Shown here: one piece after another, positions 13,841-61,712 of the stretch
How the letters are laid out: every line of letters begins with the position of its first letter
How positions within the stretch are numbered: position 1 is the stretch's first letter
Source: a virus
Reading direction: 5' to 3' (one strand)
DNA: 64,000 bases
IMG/VR virus record: IMGVR_UViG_3300010885_050098
Coordinates: 1-64,000 of that record
The notes under the pieces: model-generated
The model's input: only the letters and a program-made list of their open reading frames with translations
Database searches by the model: none
Told to the model about the DNA's origin: nothing
Translations under genes and position numbers: made by a program

Positions 13841-14062
13841 TTATATGTCTAAAGGCTGGTCGTATGTCTTAAGGGCTTTAGAAAACATACTTAGAACATC
13901 CCAATATACGGATTCGTGTTTTGTAAAGAAATGAAGCCCAATTACTTTTGTATCAGTTATAGAAGGTAAACAACCGTTATTGTAGTCTTTGTACAGCAGT
14001 TTTCTAAGGGCGCCGATTTCATCGTCCCTATCTTCTTGATCCATAAGCCAAACCATAAACAT
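13841..14062 (-). CDS. YozE-like SAM-fold small protein
   Basis: A 73-residue protein. VWLMDQEDRDDEIGALRKLLYKD resembles the YozE_SAM_like family in its W-L-x2-Q-x2-R-x-D-x-I-G pattern, although shown here only in part. I start at the Met at 14062; a longer frame to 14095 would run into the tRNA gene. YozE-like proteins are small helical proteins of unclear role. Confidence 0.55.
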   Translation of the reverse strand: MFMVWLMDQEDRDDEIGALRKLLYKDYNNGCLPSITDTKVIGLHFFTKHESVYWDVLSMFSKALKTYDQPLDI

Positions 14063-14084
14063 GGAATACAGGGTAGAGCATTTG

Positions 14085-14155
14085 CTCCCAGACATGGACT
14101 CGAACCACGATTAGATGCTCCAGAGGCACCCGTCCTGCCATTAGACGATCTGGGA
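14085..14155 (-). tRNA. tRNA-Gln (anticodon CTG)
   Basis: Folds as a full cloverleaf on the minus strand: acceptor TCCCAGA / TCTGGGA, D arm with TAATGGCA, anticodon stem GGTGC / GCATC with loop CTCTGGA, T arm CGTGG / CCATG with loop TTCGAGT. The discriminator base is G. The genome does not encode a full CCA end. It decodes CAG. Confidence 0.92.
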
Positions 14156-16994: not shown

Positions 16995-17109
16995 CGATGC
17001 GCGGCTACTGTATAGACCAAAAATACGTCACCAGTTTTTGATACCTGGTGCCCCCCGCTCTCGGGCGTGTCGTTTAAGGGTGGGGGGGTCTGCTGGGGGG
17101 TAGACCAGC

Positions 17110-17125
17110 TCGAACACCTGTTCGA
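17110..17125. promoter_or_regulatory. LexA/SOS box 1
   Basis: TCGAACACCTGTTCGA is a perfect palindrome except for the central two bases and fits the Gram-positive and actinobacterial LexA site (CGAAC-N4-GTTCG). It ends exactly ten bases before the TGCAAACTC box of cassette promoter 1. Confidence 0.85.
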
Positions 17126-17134
17126 ATAACTATC

Positions 17135-17176
17135 TTGCAAACTCTATTGACCCGACCCTATGCGCTCGCGTATGTT
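17135..17176 (+). promoter_or_regulatory. Cassette promoter 1
   Basis: Shared box TTGCAAACTCTATTGACC; TTGACC is a candidate -35 and GTATGT or TATGTT a candidate -10 at 17-18 bases. The leader then forms hairpin TCGCAC-acaa-GTGCGA at 17184-17199, and GCAAAGGGGCTGT precedes the ATG. An alternative reading has TCTATT as the -10, which would place the SOS box on the -35. Confidence 0.65.
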
Positions 17177-17221
17177 TCTCCTATCGCACACAAGTGCGAA
17201 CGAACCGCAAAGGGGCTGTAT

Positions 17222-17395
17222 ATGACACGCAAGGACTTCGAGTTAATCGCTCAAGTAATCAAAGCACAACGCAAGCCACACAATGACACCGCAACACTCG
17301 ACGAATTAACTCGCGAGTTTGCCTACGCACTAGCCGACACTAACCCACGCTTCGACACTCACCGCTTCATCGAGGCTTGCAAGGTGAGCGCATGA
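17222..17395 (+). CDS. Small phage protein, cassette 1
   Basis: A 57-residue helical protein from the ATG just after the AAAGGGGCTGT motif. An earlier in-frame Met at 17135 lies within the promoter and is rejected. The pattern FAYALADTNPRFDTHRFIEAC resembles short conserved phage proteins that end in R-F-x-x-A-C. Function unknown. It is the first gene of a four-gene coupled set. Confidence 0.7.
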   Translation: MTRKDFELIAQVIKAQRKPHNDTATLDELTREFAYALADTNPRFDTHRFIEACKVSA

Positions 17396-17577
17396 AACTC
17401 AACCGACGAGGCGAGCGCGTTCTCGCGTTCTACATATTCTTCACAATGGCGCTGTTCGCTGGCGTTCTAGTAATGGGGGCAAACTTCCTACTTACTCATC
17501 ACCAAGTAATCGACCAATCAACCTGCCACCAAACGGAGGACGGGTTGTCTTGCAAATGGAATTGGGAGGCAAAATGA
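17392..17577 (+). CDS. Single-TM protein, cassette 1
   Basis: A 61-residue protein joined to the gene before by ATGA. A basic start (MKLNRRGER) is followed by one membrane segment at about residues 10-34 and a short outer part with two cysteines. Function unknown; it might alter the host membrane early in infection. Confidence 0.65.
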   Translation: MKLNRRGERVLAFYIFFTMALFAGVLVMGANFLLTHHQVIDQSTCHQTEDGLSCKWNWEAK

Positions 17578-17918
17578 CACAAGGAACCGAATTCAGAAAG
17601 GCGCAAGCCGAAGCACTAGCCAACCGCACCGCGTGTTGGATATGCAAGAACTACTTCGACCGCAAGGCAGGCGAGATGTCCTATCTCCTCGCTTATGTAT
17701 TCGTCGGCAAAGTGGGAACTCTTGAACAAGAGATAACCGCTTACAACTTCGACAAGGTAGAAGACACTCGCAAGCCCGTCTTCGAGAAGCAATCTCACCT
17801 TGTCTGTAATCTGTGCGAGGAGAACCATGTTCTCGCCTACGCTGTGGAGAATATCTACCCTAACGGCGGATACCACTCAACTCGCAAAGCAACCGACCTT
17901 CTATGGGATGAGGCGTAA
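17574..17918 (+). CDS. Zinc-binding hypothetical protein, cassette 1
   Basis: A 114-residue protein starting at the ATG in the ATGA overlap. C-W-I-C near residue 22 and C-N-L-C near residue 79 look like two halves of one zinc site. No family recognised. Confidence 0.65.
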   Translation: MTQGTEFRKAQAEALANRTACWICKNYFDRKAGEMSYLLAYVFVGKVGTLEQEITAYNFDKVEDTRKPVFEKQSHLVCNLCEENHVLAYAVENIYPNGGYHSTRKATDLLWDEA

Positions 17919-18181
17919 TGAAACGCGAGGACTTAGAGAAAATGATTCACTTCATGGCTGGCGGAGTAGAAACCGCAGACGAGATCAAATTCGTAGATAA
18001 ACACCTCGAAGGCTTTAACACCTTCCTACTGGATATGACTACTCACCGATTGGTTCAAGCTGGGATTGAGCTCGAGGAAGCTCAGTCCATGCTGCAAGGC
18101 CTGGTTCAAGTGAGCCGCATGCTCGGAGCTTCTCAGTTCCAAGAGTTCGTGCAGTTTCATCAAATCGTAGACCAAATATAA
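17918..18181 (+). CDS. Helical hypothetical protein, cassette 1
   Basis: An 87-residue, mostly helical protein coupled by TAATG. It ends six bases before the cassette terminator. No motif recognised. Confidence 0.65.
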   Translation: MKREDLEKMIHFMAGGVETADEIKFVDKHLEGFNTFLLDMTTHRLVQAGIELEEAQSMLQGLVQVSRMLGASQFQEFVQFHQIVDQI

Positions 18182-18187
18182 ATAGAA

Positions 18188-18222
18188 GGGCGTCCGCTGA
18201 TCCTGGCGGGCGCTCTTTTTTT
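18188..18222 (+). terminator. Terminator of cassette 1
   Basis: GC-rich stem GGGCGTCCGC / GCGGGCGCTC followed by seven T. The loop contains GATCCTGG, a sequence repeated in this region. Confidence 0.85.
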
Positions 18223-18244
18223 ATGCGCCGCGCCGGGGCGCCAA

Positions 18245-18271
18245 ATGTTTGTGTTGGAACCCGCCCTCCCT
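18245..18271 (+). repeat. Inter-cassette element, copy A
   Basis: ATGTTTGTGTTGG then CCGCCCTCCCT. A hairpin TCCCTaaAGGGA and a GGGAGAGA tract follow, and cassette promoter 2 starts about 50 bases later. Confidence 0.8.
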
Positions 18272-18320
18272 GTTCCTAATCCCTAAAGGGAAGGGGGAGA
18301 GACGCCGGGCAGAAATTGGT

Positions 18321-18360
18321 CTGCAAACTCTATTGAATATGTCGGTGGTAGATGATTGAG
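18321..18360 (+). promoter_or_regulatory. Cassette promoter 2
   Basis: CTGCAAACTCTATTGAAT gives the shared box plus candidate -35 TTGAAT. TAGATGATT, also found in promoter 3, stands in the -10 region. The leader hairpin is ATGGC/GCCAT and the start-associated motif ATTGGGGCTGTT abuts the ATG. Confidence 0.6.
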
Positions 18361-18408
18361 TTCTCTCATGGCAAGCAACAAGGCAAGCCATTATAGATTG
18401 GGGCTGTT

Positions 18409-18879
18409 ATGGGTCTTGATATGTATCTCCACGCTAAGAAGTATGTTAGCGGTTGGTCGCATGAGAAGGATACGAGCGAGTACCAAAGACTACGCGCTCT
18501 TTATCCTGAAGTCGAGATTGACGAGGGTTCTCCTTCGATTGAACTCGTCTTTACTGTTGGGTATTGGCGCAAGGCTAATGCCATTCATAGTTGGTTCGTT
18601 CAGAATGTCCAAGAAGGGCAAGATGATTGCAAGCCGTACTATGTTGAACCAACCGACTTAATGAAGTTGAAGGAAGCATGCAGTTTGGAACTTCTAGTTC
18701 CTGCTGGTGGTGCTGGTGGTGGTGTTCTTGAACCTACTGCTGGTTTCTTTTTTGGTAATGCCGAACGCGACGATTGGTATTACGAAAATCTTAATCGCAC
18801 AATTCAGATTGTGGATAAGTGCCTAGCACTTCCGCAAGACGGCTGGCATTGGTCTTTCGAATATCAGTCTAGTTGGTAA
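18409..18879 (+). CDS. Conserved phage protein (MGLDMYL family), cassette 2
   Basis: A 156-residue protein starting MGLDMYLHAKKYVSGW, with YWRKANAIHSWFVQNVQ and a later GFFFG. This arrangement is seen in hypothetical proteins from many phages and bacteria; the biochemical role is unknown. It is the only gene of the cassette. Confidence 0.75.
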   Translation: MGLDMYLHAKKYVSGWSHEKDTSEYQRLRALYPEVEIDEGSPSIELVFTVGYWRKANAIHSWFVQNVQEGQDDCKPYYVEPTDLMKLKEACSLELLVPAGGAGGGVLEPTAGFFFGNAERDDWYYENLNRTIQIVDKCLALPQDGWHWSFEYQSSW

Positions 18880-18891
18880 TCCGTCGAAGGG

Positions 18892-18920
18892 AAGCGCCTC
18901 AGAAATGGGGCGCTTTTCTT
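18892..18920 (+). terminator. Terminator of cassette 2
   Basis: AAGCGCC / GGGCGCTT stem with a T-rich tail (TTTTCTTTT). It directly abuts cassette promoter 3; there is no inter-cassette element here. Confidence 0.85.
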
Positions 18921-18960
18921 TTGCAAACTCTATTGTATTTATTCAGTAGATGATTTAAGT
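18921..18960 (+). promoter_or_regulatory. Cassette promoter 3
   Basis: TTGCAAACTCTATTGTAT, then TAGATGATTTAAG as in promoter 2. The leader hairpin is CAGCGC/GCGTTG and the start motif is the variant TTAGGGGGTTAGC before ATG 19008. Confidence 0.6.
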
Positions 18961-19007
18961 TTCTCTTATCAGCGCAAGTCGCGTTGATATTTTCTTAGGG
19001 GGTTAGC

Positions 19008-19259
19008 ATGGCAAACGATTTTTGGAATAAGTATTACGGCTCTTTCGTTGGAGCAAAGATTGTGAAGTTCGTTGGCATGAATACTGAGGACGATATGGGA
19101 GATGGTTTCCCTGAGTTCGAAGTCAAGTTCGCAGATGGCGAGATTGGGATTATCTCTATCTCACAAGACCCTGAAGGTAATGGTGGCGGATTTATATTCG
19201 GCTTAGCATTACCACAAGACCACCCACAAGGTGGGGAAGTGAGGACACTCAATGCCTAG
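19008..19259 (+). CDS. Hypothetical protein, cassette 3
   Basis: An 83-residue acidic beta-rich protein (GAKIVKFVG, FEVKFADGEIGIISIS). It overlaps the next gene by eight bases. No family recognised. Confidence 0.65.
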   Translation: MANDFWNKYYGSFVGAKIVKFVGMNTEDDMGDGFPEFEVKFADGEIGIISISQDPEGNGGGFIFGLALPQDHPQGGEVRTLNA

Positions 19260-19440
19260 ATTAGAAATCGGTGACAAGTATGTCACTCAGAAGTCGGGTG
19301 TCGAAGGGATTATCCTTGAGATAGTCCCGAACGATACTGGATCCGTTCGCTTGCGGTTGGTAACACCTGCCCTTGAAACTCGTTGGACAACCTATGTCCC
19401 CGAGCGATTGGGACAAGTAAAGGTTTCATCAGCCCCCTGA
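19252..19440 (+). CDS. Small beta-barrel-like protein, paralogue of 37216-37419
   Basis: A 62-residue protein. GDKYVTQKSGVEG, EIVPNDTGS and RWTTYVP match GDIYTTHSSGVKG, EIVPNKTGT and RWTTHIP in the right-arm gene, so the two are paralogues. The pattern suggests a small SH3- or KOW-like barrel. Function unknown. Confidence 0.7.
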   Translation: MPRLEIGDKYVTQKSGVEGIILEIVPNDTGSVRLRLVTPALETRWTTYVPERLGQVKVSSAP

Positions 19441-19477
19441 TTGAAAACTCCTGAGCATGAGTTAAAAGTGCTCAACC

Positions 19478-19527
19478 AAAAAGCTCGTGGATCCTGGCAC
19501 CGCGCCGGGAGCTGCGAGCTTTTTTGT
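19478..19527 (+). terminator. Terminator of cassette 3
   Basis: AAAAAGCTCG / CGAGCTTTTTT stem with a structured loop that contains GGATCCTGGC. Confidence 0.8.
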
Positions 19528-19550
19528 TTGTGTTGAGACCCACCCTCCCT
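19526..19550 (+). repeat. Inter-cassette element, copy B
   Basis: GTTTGTGTTG then CCACCCTCCCT; the first AT of the motif is replaced by the terminator T-run. A hairpin TTAC-ttc-GTAA and GGAGAGA follow. Confidence 0.8.
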
Positions 19551-19601
19551 GTCTCTGACTTACTTCGTAAGGGAGTTGTTGGAGAGATGCCGGGCGCAAG
19601 C

Positions 19602-19617
19602 TCGAACAGATGTTCGA
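19602..19617. promoter_or_regulatory. LexA/SOS box 2
   Basis: TCGAACAGATGTTCGA, a palindrome with the CGAAC-N4-GTTCG core. Its last base is ten bases before the TGCAAACTC box of promoter 4, the same spacing as SOS box 1. Confidence 0.85.
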
Positions 19618-19625
19618 AAAAATAG

Positions 19626-19667
19626 TTTGCAAACTCTATTGAAAGTAGGAGAGCGAGCGCATAATGT
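19626..19667 (+). promoter_or_regulatory. Cassette promoter 4
   Basis: TTTGCAAACTCTA followed by TTGAAA, 17 bases, then TAATGT, one of the clearest -35/-10 pairs of the set. The leader has hairpin GCGCA/TGCGT and GAAAGGGGCTGT (19697-19708). Confidence 0.75.
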
Positions 19668-19711
19668 TCTACCTATCAGCGCAAGGTGCGTTGATTGAAA
19701 GGGGCTGTAAA

Positions 19712-20167
19712 GTGCTAACGAATAAACAAGCACTTCAGGCTTATACGGAAATCGTAGAAGCCTACGCAAGCAACGAACCCTTGCCGACTACTTCGGTGAA
19801 TATGTTCGTTGAAAGTATCAAAGACTTACAAGTCCGCGATTATCTCCTAGGTCATGCTCCAACGACCTTCGGTGCTCAGGGTGCGATTGAATTCGTAACC
19901 TCTATCCTTCCGCTAGTAGATGAGGGCGCTCGCGCTCCCTTCTACACTGTATTGTCTGCCTTCTATTATGAGGCTGGCGATAGCGAACTCGCGTTCGTAT
20001 CATTAGTTCAAGCACAATTGCTTGACCCACAATATGCTCTAGCAAAATTGTTTGAGCGTGTTTACAAGGCTGGTTGGCCAGCCACCGCACTCGCGCAATT
20101 GCGCGTTGAACTTCACCCAAAGGTTGCAGAAACCTTTGAGGTTGAAACCGAGTTGGAGTTCGCGTAA
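19712..20167 (+). CDS. DUF4192-like protein, cassette 4
   Basis: A 151-residue helical protein. I start at the GTG three bases after GAAAGGGGCTGT; an in-frame ATG at 19664 lies inside the promoter. RDYLLGHAP followed by a helical part with YYEAGDSELAFVSLVQAQ and LDPQYALAKL resembles the C-terminal half of DUF4192, a family known mainly from actinobacteria and of unknown role. It is one of two units with an SOS box, so induction after DNA damage is plausible. Confidence 0.7.
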   Translation: MLTNKQALQAYTEIVEAYASNEPLPTTSVNMFVESIKDLQVRDYLLGHAPTTFGAQGAIEFVTSILPLVDEGARAPFYTVLSAFYYEAGDSELAFVSLVQAQLLDPQYALAKLFERVYKAGWPATALAQLRVELHPKVAETFEVETELEFA

Positions 20168-20177
20168 CTTCAGCCCC

Positions 20178-20213
20178 GAAGCCCCTCGGCAGAAATGCCG
20201 GGGGGCTTTTTTA
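20178..20213 (+). terminator. Terminator of cassette 4
   Basis: AAGCCCCTCGGC / GCCGGGGGGCTT stem with a T6 tail. A second hairpin CAGCTG / CAGCTG plus T7 at 20235-20262, next to another GGATCCTGGCG, may act as a backup. Confidence 0.88.
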
Positions 20214-20234
20214 ATTTCCGGATCCTGGCGCCGG

Positions 20235-20262
20235 CAGCTGAGATCCAGGCAGCTGTTTTTTT
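20235..20262 (+). terminator. Possible second terminator
   Basis: CAGCTG-agatccagg-CAGCTG followed by TTTTTTT. It lies about 25 bases after the first terminator. The short stem makes it less certain. Confidence 0.5.
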
Positions 20263-20292
20263 AGGGCGCCAAATAATATTTCCCGATGCCTA

Positions 20293-20320
20293 ATGTTTGT
20301 GTTGGACAGCCCTCCCACCC
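20293..20320 (+). repeat. Inter-cassette element, copy C
   Basis: ATGTTTGTGTTGG then CCCTCCCACCC, with the two pyrimidine blocks in swapped order compared with copies B and F. A hairpin CCCT-ttc-AGGG inside a longer stem and GGAGAGAG follow. Confidence 0.8.
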
Positions 20321-20370
20321 TGTCTAACCCTTTCAGGGAATTAGGAGGAGAGAGTTGCCCAGGAATAGTT

Positions 20371-20410
20371 CGCAAACTCTATTTACAAGTGGGTGCGCTG
20401 CGTGGGAGAG
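20371..20410 (+). promoter_or_regulatory. Cassette promoter 5
   Basis: CGCAAACTCTA followed by TTTACA. The -10 is not clear (GGAGAG at 17 bases). The leader has stem TGTTGGA/TCCGACA and GAAGGGCTGT before ATG 20457. Confidence 0.55.
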
Positions 20411-20456
20411 TTCATCTGTTGGAGAAGCCAAGTATCCGACAAGAAGGGCTGTTGAT

Positions 20457-20873
20457 ATGGCTAGGGCTATGTCTGTGAAAGTGCCAACCGCAAAAGTAAT
20501 TGCCGCGTTGGAAGCAAGACTCGTAAAGACTCAAACCGAGTGGGACAATCGGGGCGAGGCTGAAGCAAAGTTCCAAGATGAACACAAGGCTTGGAGTGAA
20601 GAAATGAAGAAGTGGGCTGTTGCTCGCATCTCTAAAGCAGAGAATCTTCGTGCTAATTATCGTTCGTGGAGTAATCAAGTCAATATCGACTTTGACCTCT
20701 CTACCAAAGATGGGGACTTCCCTATCGAGCCAAATCGCGAACACGAAAGTCGTGCGGAGTGGCAAGTCAAGGCTGAGGTTGAGGAAATCACCAACGCTCT
20801 AAATATCTTGCGTATGACTGACGAGGAATATGTAAATGCCTCGACTATGAAGTCAATCTCGCAATATCTATAA
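20457..20873 (+). CDS. Helical/coiled-coil protein, cassette 5
   Basis: A 138-residue protein from the ATG after GAAGGGCTGTTGAT. The N-terminal half is a charged helix (VIAALEARLVKTQTEWDNRGEAEAKF), likely a coiled coil. A longer frame from 20355 would include the promoter. No family recognised. Confidence 0.7.
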   Translation: MARAMSVKVPTAKVIAALEARLVKTQTEWDNRGEAEAKFQDEHKAWSEEMKKWAVARISKAENLRANYRSWSNQVNIDFDLSTKDGDFPIEPNREHESRAEWQVKAEVEEITNALNILRMTDEEYVNASTMKSISQYL

Positions 20874-20940
20874 GTAATCGAAACAGGGGCAGTTTGCGGG
20901 AGTTCTAGCCCAATGTCGTAAGTAAGAACCCGCACCTAGC

Positions 20941-20980
20941 AAGCGGCAGGGCCTGGGGCAACCCGGGCTCTGTCTGCCGC
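20941..20980. other. Strong hairpin after cassette 5
   Basis: AAGCGGCAG / CTGCCGCTg stem with a second inner stem (CCTGGGG...CCCGGG). There is no T-run, so it is not a standard terminator. CCCAGGATCC, the inverted form of the repeated GGATCCTGG, follows at once. Confidence 0.6.
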
Positions 20981-21012
20981 TGCCCAGGATCCAAGCGGCG
21001 CGGATCGCGCAA

Positions 21013-21036
21013 ATGTTTGTGTTGGCCCTCCCACCC
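21013..21036 (+). repeat. Inter-cassette element, copy D
   Basis: ATGTTTGTGTTGG joined directly to CCCTCCCACCCC, then CTCCC/GGGAG pairing and AAGAGAGA. Promoter 6 follows about 65 bases later. Confidence 0.8.
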
Positions 21037-21100
21037 CGTTTATAGGGAGTATGTATGTAAGAGAGACTCAGCTGCCCGGTGGATCCTGGCAAAACTAGTC

Positions 21101-21140
21101 TGCAAACTCTATTTACACGAGCACGGCCAGCATGAGAGAG
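21101..21140 (+). promoter_or_regulatory. Cassette promoter 6
   Basis: TGCAAACTCTA followed by TTTACA; the -10 is poor. The leader has TTCG/CGAA hairpin and GAAAGGGGCTGT at 21157-21168 before ATG 21175. GGATCCTGGC stands just upstream. Confidence 0.55.
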
Positions 21141-21174
21141 TTCGCCTACACCTCACGAAAGGGGCTGTTTACAT

Positions 21175-21717
21175 ATGGGTTATTACATTGACCTAACTGA
21201 TGCCGATTGGGAAATTCCCGAAACCGCAGAAGTGCTAGAGGCGTTGAAAGAAATGCCTACCAAATATCACGCCATTAAACGTGGCGGTTCATCTAATGGA
21301 GAATCTTGGTTCTCATGGATGAGCGACGAAAGTATCCTCAACGCAGAGAGTGCGGAGAGAATATTCAACGACCTAGGGTTCGAGACTACGTCAACCGACG
21401 GTAGTTTTAAACTCGATGGTTACTCCAGCAAAACGGGCCAAGAAGATTTATTCTTGGCGGTCGTTGCCCCATTCTGCAAAACAGGTTCATACGTGGAATT
21501 CCGCGGTGAAGATGGAGCCGAATGGCAATACTCAGTACGTGATGGTGTCATGCAATATTCAGAAGTTGCTCGTCACTTTCCCGAACCGCATCCGTGGCGC
21601 TACTCCCACTTCCAATTCGATGACGGTAAGACTCAGTCTTTCGCAATCGATATCACAAAACCTCTTCCAGAAGGGGTCCATAACGGCCACGATAAATACA
21701 TCAAGGCCACAGTTTAA
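21175..21717 (+). CDS. Conserved hypothetical protein, cassette 6
   Basis: A 180-residue acidic protein beginning MGYYIDLTDADWEIPE, with RGGSSNGESWFSWM near residue 37. The pattern occurs in hypothetical proteins of actinobacteria and their phages. It has no membrane segment, and its function is unknown. A single-gene cassette. Confidence 0.7.
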   Translation: MGYYIDLTDADWEIPETAEVLEALKEMPTKYHAIKRGGSSNGESWFSWMSDESILNAESAERIFNDLGFETTSTDGSFKLDGYSSKTGQEDLFLAVVAPFCKTGSYVEFRGEDGAEWQYSVRDGVMQYSEVARHFPEPHPWRYSHFQFDDGKTQSFAIDITKPLPEGVHNGHDKYIKATV

Positions 21718-21735
21718 AAGCTGAAAAAGCTGAAT

Positions 21736-21782
21736 GCTCTCACCGGGATCACCCTAGCGGATCCTGGTGGGAGCTTTTTTTA
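21736..21782 (+). terminator. Terminator of cassette 6
   Basis: GCTCTCACC / GGTGGGAGC stem, T7 tail, with GGATCCTGGTGG forming part of the right arm. Confidence 0.88.
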
Positions 21783-21803
21783 TTTAATAAATATCCCAAA
21801 GAG

Positions 21804-21827
21804 GGGAGGGTGGGCCGACACAAACAT
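21804..21827 (-). repeat. Inter-cassette element, copy E (inverted)
   Basis: The only inverted copy: read on the minus strand it is ATGTTTGTGTCGG then CCCACCCTCCCC. The GGAGAGAGAG tract that follows at 21861 keeps the forward orientation. Confidence 0.75.
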
Positions 21828-21885
21828 CTGGCTTTGGGTAATAAAGGCAAACGGAGCCCTCGGAGAGAGAGCGCGAAAAAATTCT

Positions 21886-21926
21886 TTGCAAACTCTATTT
21901 ACACGGAGAGACTGAGCACGTAATGT
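21886..21926 (+). promoter_or_regulatory. Cassette promoter 7
   Basis: TTGCAAACTCTA followed by TTTACA, 17 bases, TAATGT: the best match to a sigma-70-type promoter in the array. The leader hairpin is TGTAAgCGG/CCGaTTACA and the start motif is GAAGGGCTG before ATG 21968. Confidence 0.78.
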
Positions 21927-21967
21927 TCTCCTTGTAAGCGGAAGTACCGATTACAGAAGGGCTGAAA

Positions 21968-22213
21968 ATGCGTTCTCTAAGAGAGATTGCAATTGAAATT
22001 GAAAGAGAGTGTGCTGATAAGCAATGGTATTACTATGCCGAAGCCTACGTCACTCCAATGAAGTCGCTTGAATCGCTGAGCGAGCGCTACTACGAAGATA
22101 GTGCTGAATCTATCGTCATGTATGCACTTGCTAATCTCACCTCATGGCGGGGTGATACAGCTCGCCGAATCAAGGCCGAGCTCAACGCAATGCTGAAGGG
22201 GGTAAGCGCATGA
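21968..22213 (+). CDS. Conserved actinobacterial-type small protein, cassette 7
   Basis: An 81-residue helical protein with DSAESIVMYALANLTSWRGDTARRIKAEL split over two helices; the segment W-R-G-x-T-A-R-R-I-K-A-E-L is typical of small proteins in actinobacteria and their phages. Function unknown. It is coupled to the next gene by ATGA. Confidence 0.7.
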   Translation: MRSLREIAIEIERECADKQWYYYAEAYVTPMKSLESLSERYYEDSAESIVMYALANLTSWRGDTARRIKAELNAMLKGVSA

Positions 22214-22584
22214 GCGAATTAACCACGCTCAGCTGCACCGAGCTTATAGCTCGTATCGAATCACTTGAGAATGGCATAACTAACTATAGTCGCCAGCTCT
22301 CACGTATTACCGAAGGCCTAACCGCCGATAGTTGGTACCGCTCTGAGGTGGAAAAATCCACCGTGCTATCAGAGCTCTGCGAGATCCTGGGTGTTCAACC
22401 TACTCAGACCGTCTCCATCACCGCAACCCTTACGGTTTGCATGTCACACGAAGTGCCGCTCGATGAGCTGGAAGACTTCGATGCAGACCAATTGGTCTCA
22501 GACCAACTTTCTATCGATGTCTACGGTGGAGATACCACCCTCGACGATTGGTCGGTAGAGAGCGCTGATTGGGAAGAGCAATGA
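22210..22584 (+). CDS. Acidic hypothetical protein, cassette 7
   Basis: A 124-residue acidic protein, helical at the N-terminus, with a C-terminal half rich in Asp and Glu. ATGA couplings on both sides. GATCCTGGG occurs inside the coding region. No family recognised. Confidence 0.65.
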   Translation: MSELTTLSCTELIARIESLENGITNYSRQLSRITEGLTADSWYRSEVEKSTVLSELCEILGVQPTQTVSITATLTVCMSHEVPLDELEDFDADQLVSDQLSIDVYGGDTTLDDWSVESADWEEQ

Positions 22585-22817
22585 ACGTAGCTCCATCCCA
22601 AGACCTCATGACTCGCTTCAAGGTTCAGGCGGCCATCACGGCCGCTTGGACTGAGTATGGCGAGCTGTACGAAGCTGAAGAGGCCGGTGGCTTCTCCGAC
22701 GCTATGGAATCGATGGAGAGAAAATATGCAGAAGGTGTAGCTGAAGGGCTCAGCTCTGCATACTTCATGATTTATAACGAATCGTTCCCACCATCGGAGG
22801 ATGAAAGTGCCATATAA
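22581..22817 (+). CDS. Helical hypothetical protein, cassette 7
   Basis: A 78-residue acidic helical protein; the start is the ATG of the ATGA overlap rather than the in-frame Met at 22569. No motif recognised. Confidence 0.65.
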   Translation: MNVAPSQDLMTRFKVQAAITAAWTEYGELYEAEEAGGFSDAMESMERKYAEGVAEGLSSAYFMIYNESFPPSEDESAI

Positions 22818-23094
22818 CCCAAGAGCTGAAAGAGAAGCGGCGATCCTGGCATACACGGATGAAGACCGGGATGCGATGGACGATACCAACCCGGTTACTC
22901 ATGCAGAGACTGGCCCTAACCGATTCCATCTCATGTCTCTATTCTTCTCAGATACTGACGGTGTTCAGATTCAAGAGGATATGGAGCTCAATGAGATAAC
23001 CGTTACCTACTTCAATGACGCATTAGTTAGCGAGGAGATTACGGAAGGCCCGATGTATGACTGGGCCATCGAGCAATACAACGGCTGGATTTAA
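22801..23094 (+). CDS. Acidic hypothetical protein, cassette 7
   Basis: A 97-residue protein with a TCGGAGG element before the ATG, which itself lies inside the end of the previous gene. Rich in Asp and Glu. GATCCTGGC occurs at 22842. No family recognised. Confidence 0.65.
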   Translation: MKVPYNPRAEREAAILAYTDEDRDAMDDTNPVTHAETGPNRFHLMSLFFSDTDGVQIQEDMELNEITVTYFNDALVSEEITEGPMYDWAIEQYNGWI

Positions 23095-23097
23095 ACG

Positions 23098-23130
23098 AGG
23101 CCCCTGCTGCGCTTGCGCGGTGGGGGTTTT
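23098..23130 (+). terminator. Terminator of cassette 7
   Basis: GGCCCC-tGC-tGCGC / GCGC-gG-tGGGGG stem and TTTT. Confidence 0.8.
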
Positions 23131-23142
23131 GCCATGCCCGAA

Positions 23143-23169
23143 ATGTTTGTGTTGAAGCCCACCCTCCCT
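23143..23169 (+). repeat. Inter-cassette element, copy F
   Basis: ATGTTTGTGTTG then CCCACCCTCCCT, hairpin TCCCT/GGGA and AAGAGAGA. Promoter 8 follows about 60 bases later. Confidence 0.8.
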
Positions 23170-23232
23170 CATTATGGGAAATATATATAAAGAGAGATCC
23201 CTGGCCGTGTGACGTAGCTCACAAGAGAGAGT

Positions 23233-23273
23233 CTGCAGACTCTATATACATTCGACGGTTGACGTGTCAATAT
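23233..23273 (+). promoter_or_regulatory. Cassette promoter 8 (variant)
   Basis: CTGCAGACTCTA is a variant of the shared box, then TATACA, 17 bases, CAATAT. The palindrome TTGACGTGTCAA lies in the spacer. GAAAGGGCTGT precedes ATG 23302. Confidence 0.65.
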
Positions 23274-23301
23274 ACGGTTAGCAATAAAAGAAAGGGCTGT
23301 C

Positions 23302-24000
23302 ATGAAATTAAAACGTAGTAAGGACCGCAAGGTTGCGAATTCACTCACCGCGGGTGGAAACGTACGTATTGCGAATTCTTTCGGGCTACCGTCCGGGAGA
23401 GAGTACTCATGTCCGGGCGCCACTAGTATATGCGAACGCATATGTTATGCGGGCAAGCTTGAGAAGCTATATCCAGGCGTTAGAGAGAATCTCACACACA
23501 ATTGGGATTTACTTAAGAATGCAGACCATGACACTATGGAGAATCTCCTAATGGAGATGATCGAGGAATTCAAGGCCGAATGCGATAAGTGGAATGCGCC
23601 TAAGTCATTCCGTATCCATTGGGACGGGGATTTCTTTAATGGTGAGTACGCATTCGCGTGGAAACACGTCATCCTTAATAACCCGGATGTTAAATTTTGG
23701 GTATACACACGGGTAGAATCGGCCGCGTACATGCTTAAGGGCATGGAGAATCTTTCTCTCTATTTCTCCGGAGATAGCGAGAATTTCGAGGCCGCAGCAC
23801 GGTTGAAAGAGCACGGGATATTAATCGCTAGTCTCGATGAGACTTTCGATCGGGCCCGTGGAGCGCTTAAACTTATTGGAGAGAAGTCTGCAATATGCCC
23901 TGAGCAACGTAAGCAAATACCTCTAAACGGAGCCTGCATTGCATGCGGGATTTGCGTAGAGGGTAAAGTCAATATATCGTTCTCGATATCTAAGAAATAA
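23302..24000 (+). CDS. GP88-like phage protein, cassette 8
   Basis: A 232-residue protein. CPGATSICERICYAGK near residue 37 and a C-terminal CIACGIC are typical of the GP88 family found in mycobacteriophages and other phages. The cysteines suggest a metal or cluster site; the biochemical role of the family is not known to me. It is followed nine bases later by a second gene in the same cassette. Confidence 0.8.
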   Translation: MKLKRSKDRKVANSLTAGGNVRIANSFGLPSGREYSCPGATSICERICYAGKLEKLYPGVRENLTHNWDLLKNADHDTMENLLMEMIEEFKAECDKWNAPKSFRIHWDGDFFNGEYAFAWKHVILNNPDVKFWVYTRVESAAYMLKGMENLSLYFSGDSENFEAAARLKEHGILIASLDETFDRARGALKLIGEKSAICPEQRKQIPLNGACIACGICVEGKVNISFSISKK

Positions 24001-24009
24001 GGAGCAAGA

Positions 24010-24285
24010 ATGGGATCAACACTAGCAAGAGAGCTAGCGGGAGGAGATTTGGGCTTAGATCTACGGGCCCAGATCACCATCCAGCTACGTAGTAATCATT
24101 ACCCACCGGTACCGTATGAGATGGTGGATCCATGCATGGATGCCATCGTGGCATATAACGATGGAGACACCGATCTATTGATCGCGCTACCATCGCCGAT
24201 TAAGTGGAAAGGCCAGGATCACGCACCGGCCTATGCAATAATTGAGTCGCATCACCTTAATGATTGGATCTCATATGAAGAGTAA
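24010..24285 (+). CDS. Hypothetical protein, cassette 8
   Basis: A 91-residue protein with AGGAGCAAG before the ATG. Its coding DNA is unusually full of six- and eight-base palindromes (for example CTACGTAG, CGGTACCG, TGGATCCA). No family recognised. Confidence 0.65.
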   Translation: MGSTLARELAGGDLGLDLRAQITIQLRSNHYPPVPYEMVDPCMDAIVAYNDGDTDLLIALPSPIKWKGQDHAPAYAIIESHHLNDWISYEE

Positions 24286-24367
24286 CCTGCAGATTAAGCT
24301 TGATGCGGCCGCTAAGGCCCTAGAGCCCATCCTATGGGAGACATTGGATGAGATTGATGAAGAATGA
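24275..24367 (+). CDS. Micro-protein 1 of cassette 8, 30 aa
   Basis: ATG to TGA frame overlapping the preceding stop. The product is one amphipathic helix ending LDEIDEE. It overlaps the second micro-protein by 11 bases. Support comes from context only. Confidence 0.45.
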   Translation: MKSNLQIKLDAAAKALEPILWETLDEIDEE

Positions 24368-24449
24368 ATTTCAAGAGCTGATGGATCGGGTCCTTAAGGA
24401 GGGGCTCGATCGCATCGATCAGCTAACTGAAGAAGAGTTGCTCTCCTAA
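24357..24449 (+). CDS. Micro-protein 2 of cassette 8, 30 aa
   Basis: ATG to TAA frame, same length as its neighbour and likewise one charged helix (MKNEFQELMDRVLKEGLDRI). Last gene before the terminator. Confidence 0.45.
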   Translation: MKNEFQELMDRVLKEGLDRIDQLTEEELLS

Positions 24450-24464
24450 CGGATCGAGCATCAC

Positions 24465-24508
24465 GGCGTCCATCCCCACACAGCCCGGGGTTGGGCGCCT
24501 TTTCTTTT
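24465..24508 (+). terminator. Terminator ending the cassette array
   Basis: GGCGTCCATCCCC / CGGGGTTGGGCGCC stem with TTTTCTTTT. A second weaker stem GGCGCC...GGCG overlaps it. Confidence 0.82.
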
Positions 24509-24558
24509 GGCGAGCGCCCATTTATTGTTTGGTTGTTTGCCTACACCCATATTTCCAA

Positions 24559-24583
24559 ATGTTTGTGTTGACCCACCCTCCCC
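24559..24583 (+). repeat. Inter-cassette element, copy G
   Basis: ATGTTTGTGTTG then CCCACCCTCCCC and the best hairpin of the family, CCCTTATCCC-ttc-GGGATAGGG, followed by TAAGAGAGA. No cassette gene follows. Confidence 0.82.
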
Positions 24584-24595
24584 TTATCCCTTCGG

Positions 24596-24633
24596 GATAG
24601 GGTAAGAGAGACATCGATGTCAATAGAGTCTGC
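24596..24633 (-). promoter_or_regulatory. Inverted cassette-type promoter box
   Basis: Read on the minus strand: GCAGACTCTA, TTGACA, 17 bases, CCTATC. The -35 is perfect but the -10 is weak. It points back into element G and the array terminator, with no gene to transcribe. Confidence 0.45.
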
Positions 24634-24849
24634 TGTGATGGCCATCACATGGAGAGAGTTGAGTCGGATCGACTCAAGTTTTATGAGCCGGAATGAGCAA
24701 TCTCGAAGAGAGAGAGAGGATCGAAGATCCTGGCACATTCATGCAGAGAGAGAGAGAAGAGAGAGAGGCATGCAAGCTCCGAAGGAGCTGGCTAGGCTAC
24801 TGTCTCAGCATGCGAGACGATGAGCAGTCGTGCCACCAGGTCAAATGCT

Positions 24850-24865
24850 TGTTTCACGTGAAACT
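24850..24865. promoter_or_regulatory. parS-like ParB-binding site
   Basis: TGTTTCACGTGAAACT matches the bacterial chromosomal parS consensus TGTTTCACGTGAAACA in 15 of 16 positions, including the full 14-bp palindrome. No parA or parB gene is seen in the window, so it could be read by host ParB. Confidence 0.75.
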
Positions 24866-25134
24866 ATGCGTATATCTTCGATATTGCATATATCTTTGAT
24901 CGCCATCTCAGGCTGTGGAGAGATTAAGGAAGCAGAGATAAGTAATTGGATATCTATCTCTCTTATATCTCTCTCTTGAATATGCTCTCTCTAATTAAAA
25001 CAAGGAAATGTAAAGGGCCGTATTTCCACAGGGCGCTGTGTTGTAAGTCACATGGTAAATGTATGCAAACTCACTTGCGCTAGATACTAGCTGAGGAGTA
25101 GGTTGGCCTCCTAAGCCAAACAAGGGAGAAAACT

Positions 25135-61199: not shown

Positions 61200-61712
61200 T
61201 TAAAACACTCCAATCCAAACAGGGAAATTAGGGTCTCCGCCTTCAAACATAGCCCAGACACCTTGTTCAAGTTTAGGGACTAGTCGGTGCGGAGTATGTT
61301 CTGCGGTCGTATTAACTTCTTGATTATCATTCCATTTTTCATTTTCATCAACGTCAAGAATGTGGTCGTGAAAAAGTTTGCCACTATTTCCTGAATGTGC
61401 TGCATGAGTTAGTGTTTGTGTTGCGCTAAAACTGTGGCTGTGTGCAGGAGAGCCACCACTGCCCGTAGACCCAGAAACTGAAACACTATGACTTGTGTGT
61501 GTATTTAGTAACGCAGCCACTTCTGAAGCCAAATGAGGTAGATGGTCTGGATGATTAGCGTTACTTAAAACAGGCAAACAAGGCCAAGCCCAATCACTAA
61601 GACCCTCACCCAAAACTTGAGGAACTTGTAAACGAATCCTATTTTTTTCCAAAGGATCGTCAACATCCATACAGATACCTCGGTATATACCAAAAAATTT
61701 ATTATCAGTCAT
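61200..61712 (-). CDS. Baseplate spike, gp5/VgrG OB-fold
   Basis: A 170-residue protein from the ATG at 61712. FGIYRGICMDVDDPLEKNRIRLQVPQ is the OB-fold start of gp5-like spike proteins, and the end GVWAMFEGGDPNFPVWIGVF is typical. A His-rich stretch in the middle (HSHSF, HDH) may bind metal as in spike tips. Confidence 0.88.
   Translation of the reverse strand: MTDNKFFGIYRGICMDVDDPLEKNRIRLQVPQVLGEGLSDWAWPCLPVLSNANHPDHLPHLASEVAALLNTHTSHSVSVSGSTGSGGSPAHSHSFSATQTLTHAAHSGNSGKLFHDHILDVDENEKWNDNQEVNTTAEHTPHRLVPKLEQGVWAMFEGGDPNFPVWIGVF

Follow-up and report, generated by a model that had tools for sequence, protein, structure and literature searches.

Gene Content and Organization of the Array

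The window examined here, bases 1–64,000 of the 76,357-base virus record IMGVR_UViG_3300010885_050098, contains an array of eight serial units that extends from 17.1 to 24.5 kb of the + strand, each unit with one to four small genes, and most unit boundaries carry a conserved element of about 68 bp, designated E. The same genes recur in other orders and groupings in about 20 related viral contigs, with boundaries at the shared element, and the array probably represents exchangeable early-gene cassettes at one locus in a family of myoviruses whose hosts are probably freshwater actinobacteria. The initial annotation had described eight such units, and their number, extent, and gene content are confirmed; the array continues to about 25.1 kb, with one more copy of E and a noncoding region beyond unit 8. 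Its features are as follows.

17110–17126, no strand: LexA/SOS-box-like palindrome TCGAACACCTGTTCGAA, upstream of unit 1 (compare the Streptomyces LexA consensus)
17136–17148, +: promoter box TGCAAACTCTATT, unit 1
17222–18181, +: unit 1, four small genes, u1a–u1d, with homologues in relatives
18182–18222, +: terminator-like hairpin after unit 1, with a T7 tail (the 75 nt past the stop fold at −34.5 kcal/mol)
18246–18300, +: E copy 1, stem GGAAC/GTTCC
18322–18334, +: promoter box, unit 2
18409–18879, +: unit 2, gene u2 (156 aa; weak phrog_7971 match)
18886–18921, +: terminator-like hairpin after unit 2, abutting the next box without E
18922–18934, +: promoter box, unit 3
19008–19440, +: unit 3, genes u3a and u3b, with homologues in relatives
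19525–19587, +: E copy 2, stem GAGAC/GTCTC, immediately 3′ of a terminator-like hairpin
19602–19618, no strand: LexA-like palindrome TCGAACAGATGTTCGAA, upstream of the DUF4192 cassette
19628–19640, +: promoter box, unit 4, with TTGAAA-17-TAATGT
19712–20167, +: unit 4, DUF4192 protein (E value 8e-11), GTG start
20178–20212, +: terminator after unit 4
20294–20352, +: E copy 3, stem GACAG/CTGTC
20371–20383, +: promoter box with one mismatch (CGCAAACTCTATT), unit 5
20457–20873, +: unit 5, gene u5, with homologues in relatives
21014–21068, +: E copy 4, of the type without the first stem
21101–21113, +: promoter box, unit 6
21175–21717, +: unit 6, gene u6 (phrog_38862)
21730–21782, +: terminator after unit 6
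21790–21835, −: E, reversed, between CCCAAAG/CTTTGGG
21887–21899, +: promoter box, unit 7, with TTTACA-17-TAATGT
21968–23094, +: unit 7, genes u7a–u7d, with homologues in relatives
23096–23131, +: terminator after unit 7
23144–23198, +: E copy 6
23208–23223, no strand: GlxR/Crp-like site TGTGACGTAGCTCACA (consensus TGTGA-N6-TCACA)
23234–23246, +: degenerate box TGCAGACTCTATA, unit 8, inside the perfect 16-bp palindrome AGAGTCTGCAGACTCT
23302–24449, +: unit 8, GP88-family protein (PF17338, E value 7e-48), u8b, and two very small open reading frames
24460–24510, +: terminator-like hairpin after unit 8
24560–24612, +: last E of the array
24634–24649, no strand: GlxR/Crp-like site TGTGATGGCCATCACA, in the terminal noncoding region

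Terminator-like hairpins lie 3′ of seven of the eight units (1–4 and 6–8), as expected from the annotation of a terminator in most units. In seven units the ribosome-binding motif annotated at the gene starts, AAGGGGCTG/AAGGGCTG or TTGGGGCTG, stands ahead of the first gene; unit 3 has AGGGGGTTAG in its place. A leader hairpin, which had been described as usual, is seen in units 1–5 and 7, but the set is only modestly stable (mean z of −1.4). The sequence GATCCTGG is clustered at 18199–24726, where 10 of its 12 copies in the genome are found, in part inside terminator hairpins.

Cassette Order in Related Phages

The DNA of the array has no match among 50,697 phage records. The promoter box, used as a query in viral contigs, gave only single, chance-like copies; it is phage-specific. 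Related arrays were retrieved from viral contigs with a pattern that joins TGTTTGTGTTG, a second repeat spotted in the window, to a C-rich run after it, and their gene orders were obtained with the cassette proteins of the window as queries. Representative orders are listed below; slashes separate the units of the window and, in the relatives, mark copies of E.

Window: u1 / u2 / u3 / u4 / u5 / u6 / u7 / u8
G024: u2 / u4 / u1d-u5 / u3 / u6 / u7 / u8
G005: u4 / u5-u2 / u3a / u6 / u7 / u8
G008: u3b / u4-u5 / u6 / u3a
G021: u3b / other / u5 / u2 / u4
G012: u2-u3a / u5 / u4
G017: u7a-u1a / other / u4 / other / u8b / other / GP88

The array often occupies a conserved locus: a leftward gene homologous to that at 13841–14095 of the window lies upstream in most relatives for which the upstream flank could be read, and d1, WhiB, and a cytosine methylase lie downstream in several. 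The suggestion that the same cassettes might be found in other orders in related phages is thus borne out.

Protein scans of the window identified a myovirus-type baseplate wedge, a PolA-type DNA polymerase, a DnaB-like helicase, and RecA, together with a ribonucleotide reductase, a queuine tRNA-ribosyltransferase, and two WhiB regulators, which belong to an actinobacterial family. Judged by the baseplate wedge, Streptomyces phages such as BRock, at about 35% identity, are the nearest isolates. Because of the WhiB genes and these nearest isolates, freshwater actinobacteria are the likely hosts. The array had also been likened to a chain of morons under one regulon; a single regulon fits the data, but the moron comparison holds only as an analogy, since the record looks like that of a myovirus of the lytic type, its array at a fixed locus, and not like the late operons of a prophage.

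Promoter Boxes and Operator-like Sites

The whole 76,357-base record contains six exact copies of the box TGCAAACTCTATT and one copy with a single mismatch (at 20371), all on the + strand within the array (17136–21899) and none on the other strand, and a control search with the reversed pattern gave no match. When up to three mismatches are allowed, there are 48 matches in the window compared with 28.7 in shuffled sequence, and none of 100 shuffles reaches 48. The shared promoter box of the initial annotation withstands comparison with shuffled sequence, the box of the eighth unit being degenerate, and the spacing given there for the two best cases is exact in units 4 and 7 and weaker in the others. 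The palindrome around the box, perfect in unit 8, agrees at seven of eight positions in unit 4 and at fewer in the other units; its right half is fixed and its left half loose, an arrangement that resembles a dimer operator adjoining the −35 element.

In most genomes with at least four cassettes one box dominates: GCAAACTCTAT in the window phage (8 of 8), GGTGGCAGGTT in G014 (7 of 7), and GTGTAGGTTTG in G017 (9 of 9). Other types are CGTTATCAAA (G003, G006, and G027), GGCGTGTCG (G001, G008, and G012), and CACAGCAAATG (G015). The first three boxes are mostly missing from other genomes, although some related genomes overlap, and a single gene family, such as GP88, DUF4192, or u7a, may be found under up to seven different boxes across genomes. 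The box thus follows the genome and not the gene; the genes would move while the promoter code stays.

Sites that conform to operator consensus sequences of the likely host lie in the stretch from E to the promoter. The GlxR consensus is TGTGA-N6-TCACA (PMC7999487), and sites of this type occur at 1.84 per kb downstream of E, as compared with 0.069 per kb elsewhere in the same loci, a 27-fold difference; in several phages they are at a near-constant distance ahead of the box. Boxes similar to the LexA consensus, tCGAAC-N4-GNNCGa, from chromatin immunoprecipitation sequencing of Streptomyces LexA (PMC9380542), precede the DUF4192 cassette in the window and in three relatives (G005, G024, and G025) and also precede unit 1 of the window. 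Since a scan of 64 window proteins revealed no matching regulator, host proteins are likelier than phage proteins to read these sites. The match to the host consensus sequences suggests that some of the phage genes respond to cAMP and DNA-damage signals of the host.

Several other short sequences occur in these regions. Two contigs (L128 and L145) have DnaA-box-like TTATCCACA repeats downstream of E, where others have GlxR-like sites. The 17-mer TTTAAGGGTGGGGGGGT at 17073–17089, upstream of unit 1, has identical or near copies in several related arrays, and the 17-mer or a near copy is also present in other viral contigs, at times beside LexA-like or GlxR-like sites. After the array, a long noncoding stretch (24620–25100) contains a GlxR-like site, AGAG repeats, and, at 24851–24864, the perfect parS-like palindrome GTTTCACGTGAAAC, which 7 of 33 related records carry as a single copy, always at most about 300 bp away from a TGTTTGTGTTG copy and mostly just past the last E of the array. 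No ParB family member was found among the scanned window proteins. This noncoding stretch is possibly an origin or partition region.

The Intercassette Element

The structured element E, like the host-type operator sites, goes beyond the initial annotation. It is composed of TGTTTGTGTTG, a hairpin with a CCCNCCCNCCC loop, a GGGA segment, short tandem repeats, and GAGAGAG, and has two types, one with a stem of variable sequence closing the CCCNCCCNCCC loop and the other without such a stem. Full copies are present in at least 36 viral contigs, 20 of which have at least three; these represent 125 distinct copies, counted with the window's own copies, chance matches, and matches without the tail left out. 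The stem truly covaries: pairing of at least 4 bp is present in 43 of 55 copies as compared with 10.9 when the arms are shuffled, and the covariation score is 0.699 against 0.238 (0 of 500 shuffles; slid controls, 0.07–0.17). When the C-run was searched alone in the array loci, which avoids circularity, 104 of 109 CCCNCCCNCCC runs were found to follow TGTTTGTGTTG. The longest open reading frame downstream of E is on the strand of E in 91 of 97 cases. In the second type, exemplified by the copy at 21014–21068, 35 of 36 distinct sequences have the same base after the C-run as after GGGA (10,000 permutations gave 25 at most), a regularity for which we offer no explanation.

Two E sequences had no match in a sensitive DNA search of the 50,697 phage records, and no E was found among the repeats of the small-gene region of the distantly related Streptomyces phage BRock. 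In bacterial genomes the matches to a loose E pattern were swamped by chance and are uninformative. Matches of the Rfam model ctRNA_p42d at terminators are far below threshold and were discarded. Copies of TGTTTGTGTTG outside arrays lack the C-run, lie in or beside genes of the opposite strand, and were not counted as E; such copies occur at positions 61413, 67588, and 72622 of the record, and similar copies in relatives seem to be above chance for an 11-mer. A promoter function of E was rejected, there being no constant −35 and −10 elements around it. In the relatives, GATCCWGG is about 5-fold denser around E than elsewhere.

It is possible, if doubtful, that E is a folded nucleic acid element with a function of its own at cassette ends, either an RNA whose C-rich loop could base-pair with the G-rich ribosome-binding sites in the cassettes, in the manner of the 6C small RNAs, or a backup terminator or insulator. 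The covarying stem, the linkage of loop and 11-mer, and the strongly foldable GC-rich sequence just before E (−33 as compared with −17 kcal/mol) are consistent with such a role, but E is located between the preceding terminator and the next promoter, outside every predicted main transcript, E itself is no more foldable than average, and RNA and DNA folding cannot be told apart by G-U counts. Also, E has no match in Rfam, including the 6C RNA model, at the gathering threshold or at E values of ≤1.

A second tentative view is that E is mainly a recombination module, either an exchange site, dedicated or based on homology, or a small mobile repeat of the non-autonomous kind, and serves to move cassettes. 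Alleles of E that are 91–98% identical over about 68 bp stand ahead of different genes in different phages, and alignments of near-identical alleles end at about −8 and +60 of E; paired, inverted copies of TGTTTGTGTTG are present in a few contigs, and the reversed copy before unit 7 of the window (21790–21850) has CCCAAAG/CTTTGGG as short inverted repeats at its borders, an arrangement that looks like a flip of the segment. On the other hand, no dedicated recombinase is encoded at the array, in line with the annotation that no single recombinase is visible; an HNH endonuclease gene is upstream of the array in some genomes only, and was rejected as a general driver. The likeness among E copies of one genome is not unusual in either direction (12 similar pairs compared with 9.2 expected), which also leaves unsupported the idea that they are kept apart to avoid deletion, and two units of the window have no E. 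Both of these roles would be compatible with a locus of exchangeable cassettes. We regard as unlikely the broader proposal that E is a new structured boundary family that marks exchange points without a classical recombinase, or an RNA that controls the G-rich ribosome-binding sites, in arrays that serve as an integron-like store of accessory genes; if it were true, the covarying hairpin with its constant C-rich loop would represent a new family of boundary element.

Interpretation of the Array

Taken together, the shared motifs, the shuffled genes, and the genome-specific box on nearly all cassettes argue for a cassette system. Host RNA polymerase would recognize a promoter in every unit, where the phage-specific box lies on or beside the −35 element; in most units a short leader hairpin comes next, then a conserved ribosome-binding motif and one to four small accessory genes, and a terminator usually closes the unit. 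The units may be transcribed independently. The box of the window phage forms one half of a dyad, which suggests control of the regulon by a dimeric protein. In several relatives a neighboring position is occupied by GlxR/Crp-consensus sites, and LexA boxes are found beside the DUF4192 cassette. Cassettes would be gained, lost, and reordered at the repeated boundaries while the promoter boxes stay uniform in each genome; the simplest route would be homologous recombination, as the phage encodes RecA.

Several observations weigh against this model. Comparison of near-identical phages revealed no breakpoint, as the closest pairs are collinear over the array, and, with the exception of WhiB, no classical DNA-binding repressor (Crp, LexA, or other) is present among the scanned window proteins. 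A generic σ70 scan showed no excess of promoters (5 sites compared with 9.2 in shuffles), so that the assignment of promoters rests on their common spacing and on the comparison with relatives. After unit 5 no terminator is clear, E is missing from units 1 and 3, and the E of unit 7 is reversed. It is quite improbable that the locus is an ordinary early operon with many internal promoters, its gene orders reflecting ancient, unrelated gene gain and not exchange: gene-dense early regions are common in phages and no recombination event was seen between very close relatives, but the same families return in permuted order, the DNA between cassettes matches, and the units are set apart by terminators.

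If the locus is one of exchangeable cassettes, this uncultured group of phages of lake bacteria would trade accessory genes between phages, each phage keeping its own promoter code. The shared boundary allows arrays to be found by a simple pattern, and the accessory genes, including candidates for host takeover or counter-defense, could thus be mined across metagenomes.

Comparison with Known Systems

Integrons combine an integrase with cassettes of one promoterless gene, whereas the present units have their own predicted promoters and up to four genes, and no integrase was found in the array or among the scanned window proteins. The units do fit the anatomy of morons, with a promoter and terminator of their own, but the array locus is itself conserved between phages. 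The start-associated sequences (SAS/ESAS) of cluster K mycobacteriophages (PMC3203893) are similar in being short repeats, in one orientation, ahead of many non-structural genes of different families, and the inverted-repeat consensus of ESAS also varies between phage groups. However, SAS is a 13-bp repeat, GGGATAGGAGCCC, at the start codon; this sequence was not found within 3–7 bp of start codons in the array, where AAGGGGCTG or a similar motif is present, and the conserved parts here are a boundary element, a promoter box, a different ribosome-binding motif, and terminators. In cluster M mycobacteriophages, the conserved repeats CR3 and CR4 (PMC7953290) are stem-loops between many right-arm genes, and inserted genes bring a copy of the repeat; this likeness is one of described arrangement, and those phages have integration cassettes and large tRNA sets that are not seen in the window. 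The 6C RNA of Actinobacteria (PMC9569102) has hairpins with C-rich loops, whereas E has one C-rich loop of the form CCCNCCCNCCC.

The array is best interpreted as a modular early-gene system analogous to the promoter early stem-loop (PeSL) cassettes of T4-type phages (Arbiol 2010 and Comeau 2014, as cited in PMC4503421), built from other parts in another phage lineage. As they are summarized in that citing paper, PeSL cassettes are compact units of terminator and early promoter between small accessory genes in variable regions, and are tied to gene shuffling among related myoviruses. Here, similarly, terminator-like hairpins in seven of the eight units are joined to a block of box and predicted promoter present in all of them, in a variable region of small genes with permuted order in about 20 contigs. 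The carrier is not of the T4 type, its nearest isolates being Streptomyces phages and its polymerase of the PolA type, and, relative to that summary, the additional components here are the covarying element E, a box that varies from phage to phage, and the combination of this box with host-type GlxR and LexA sites.

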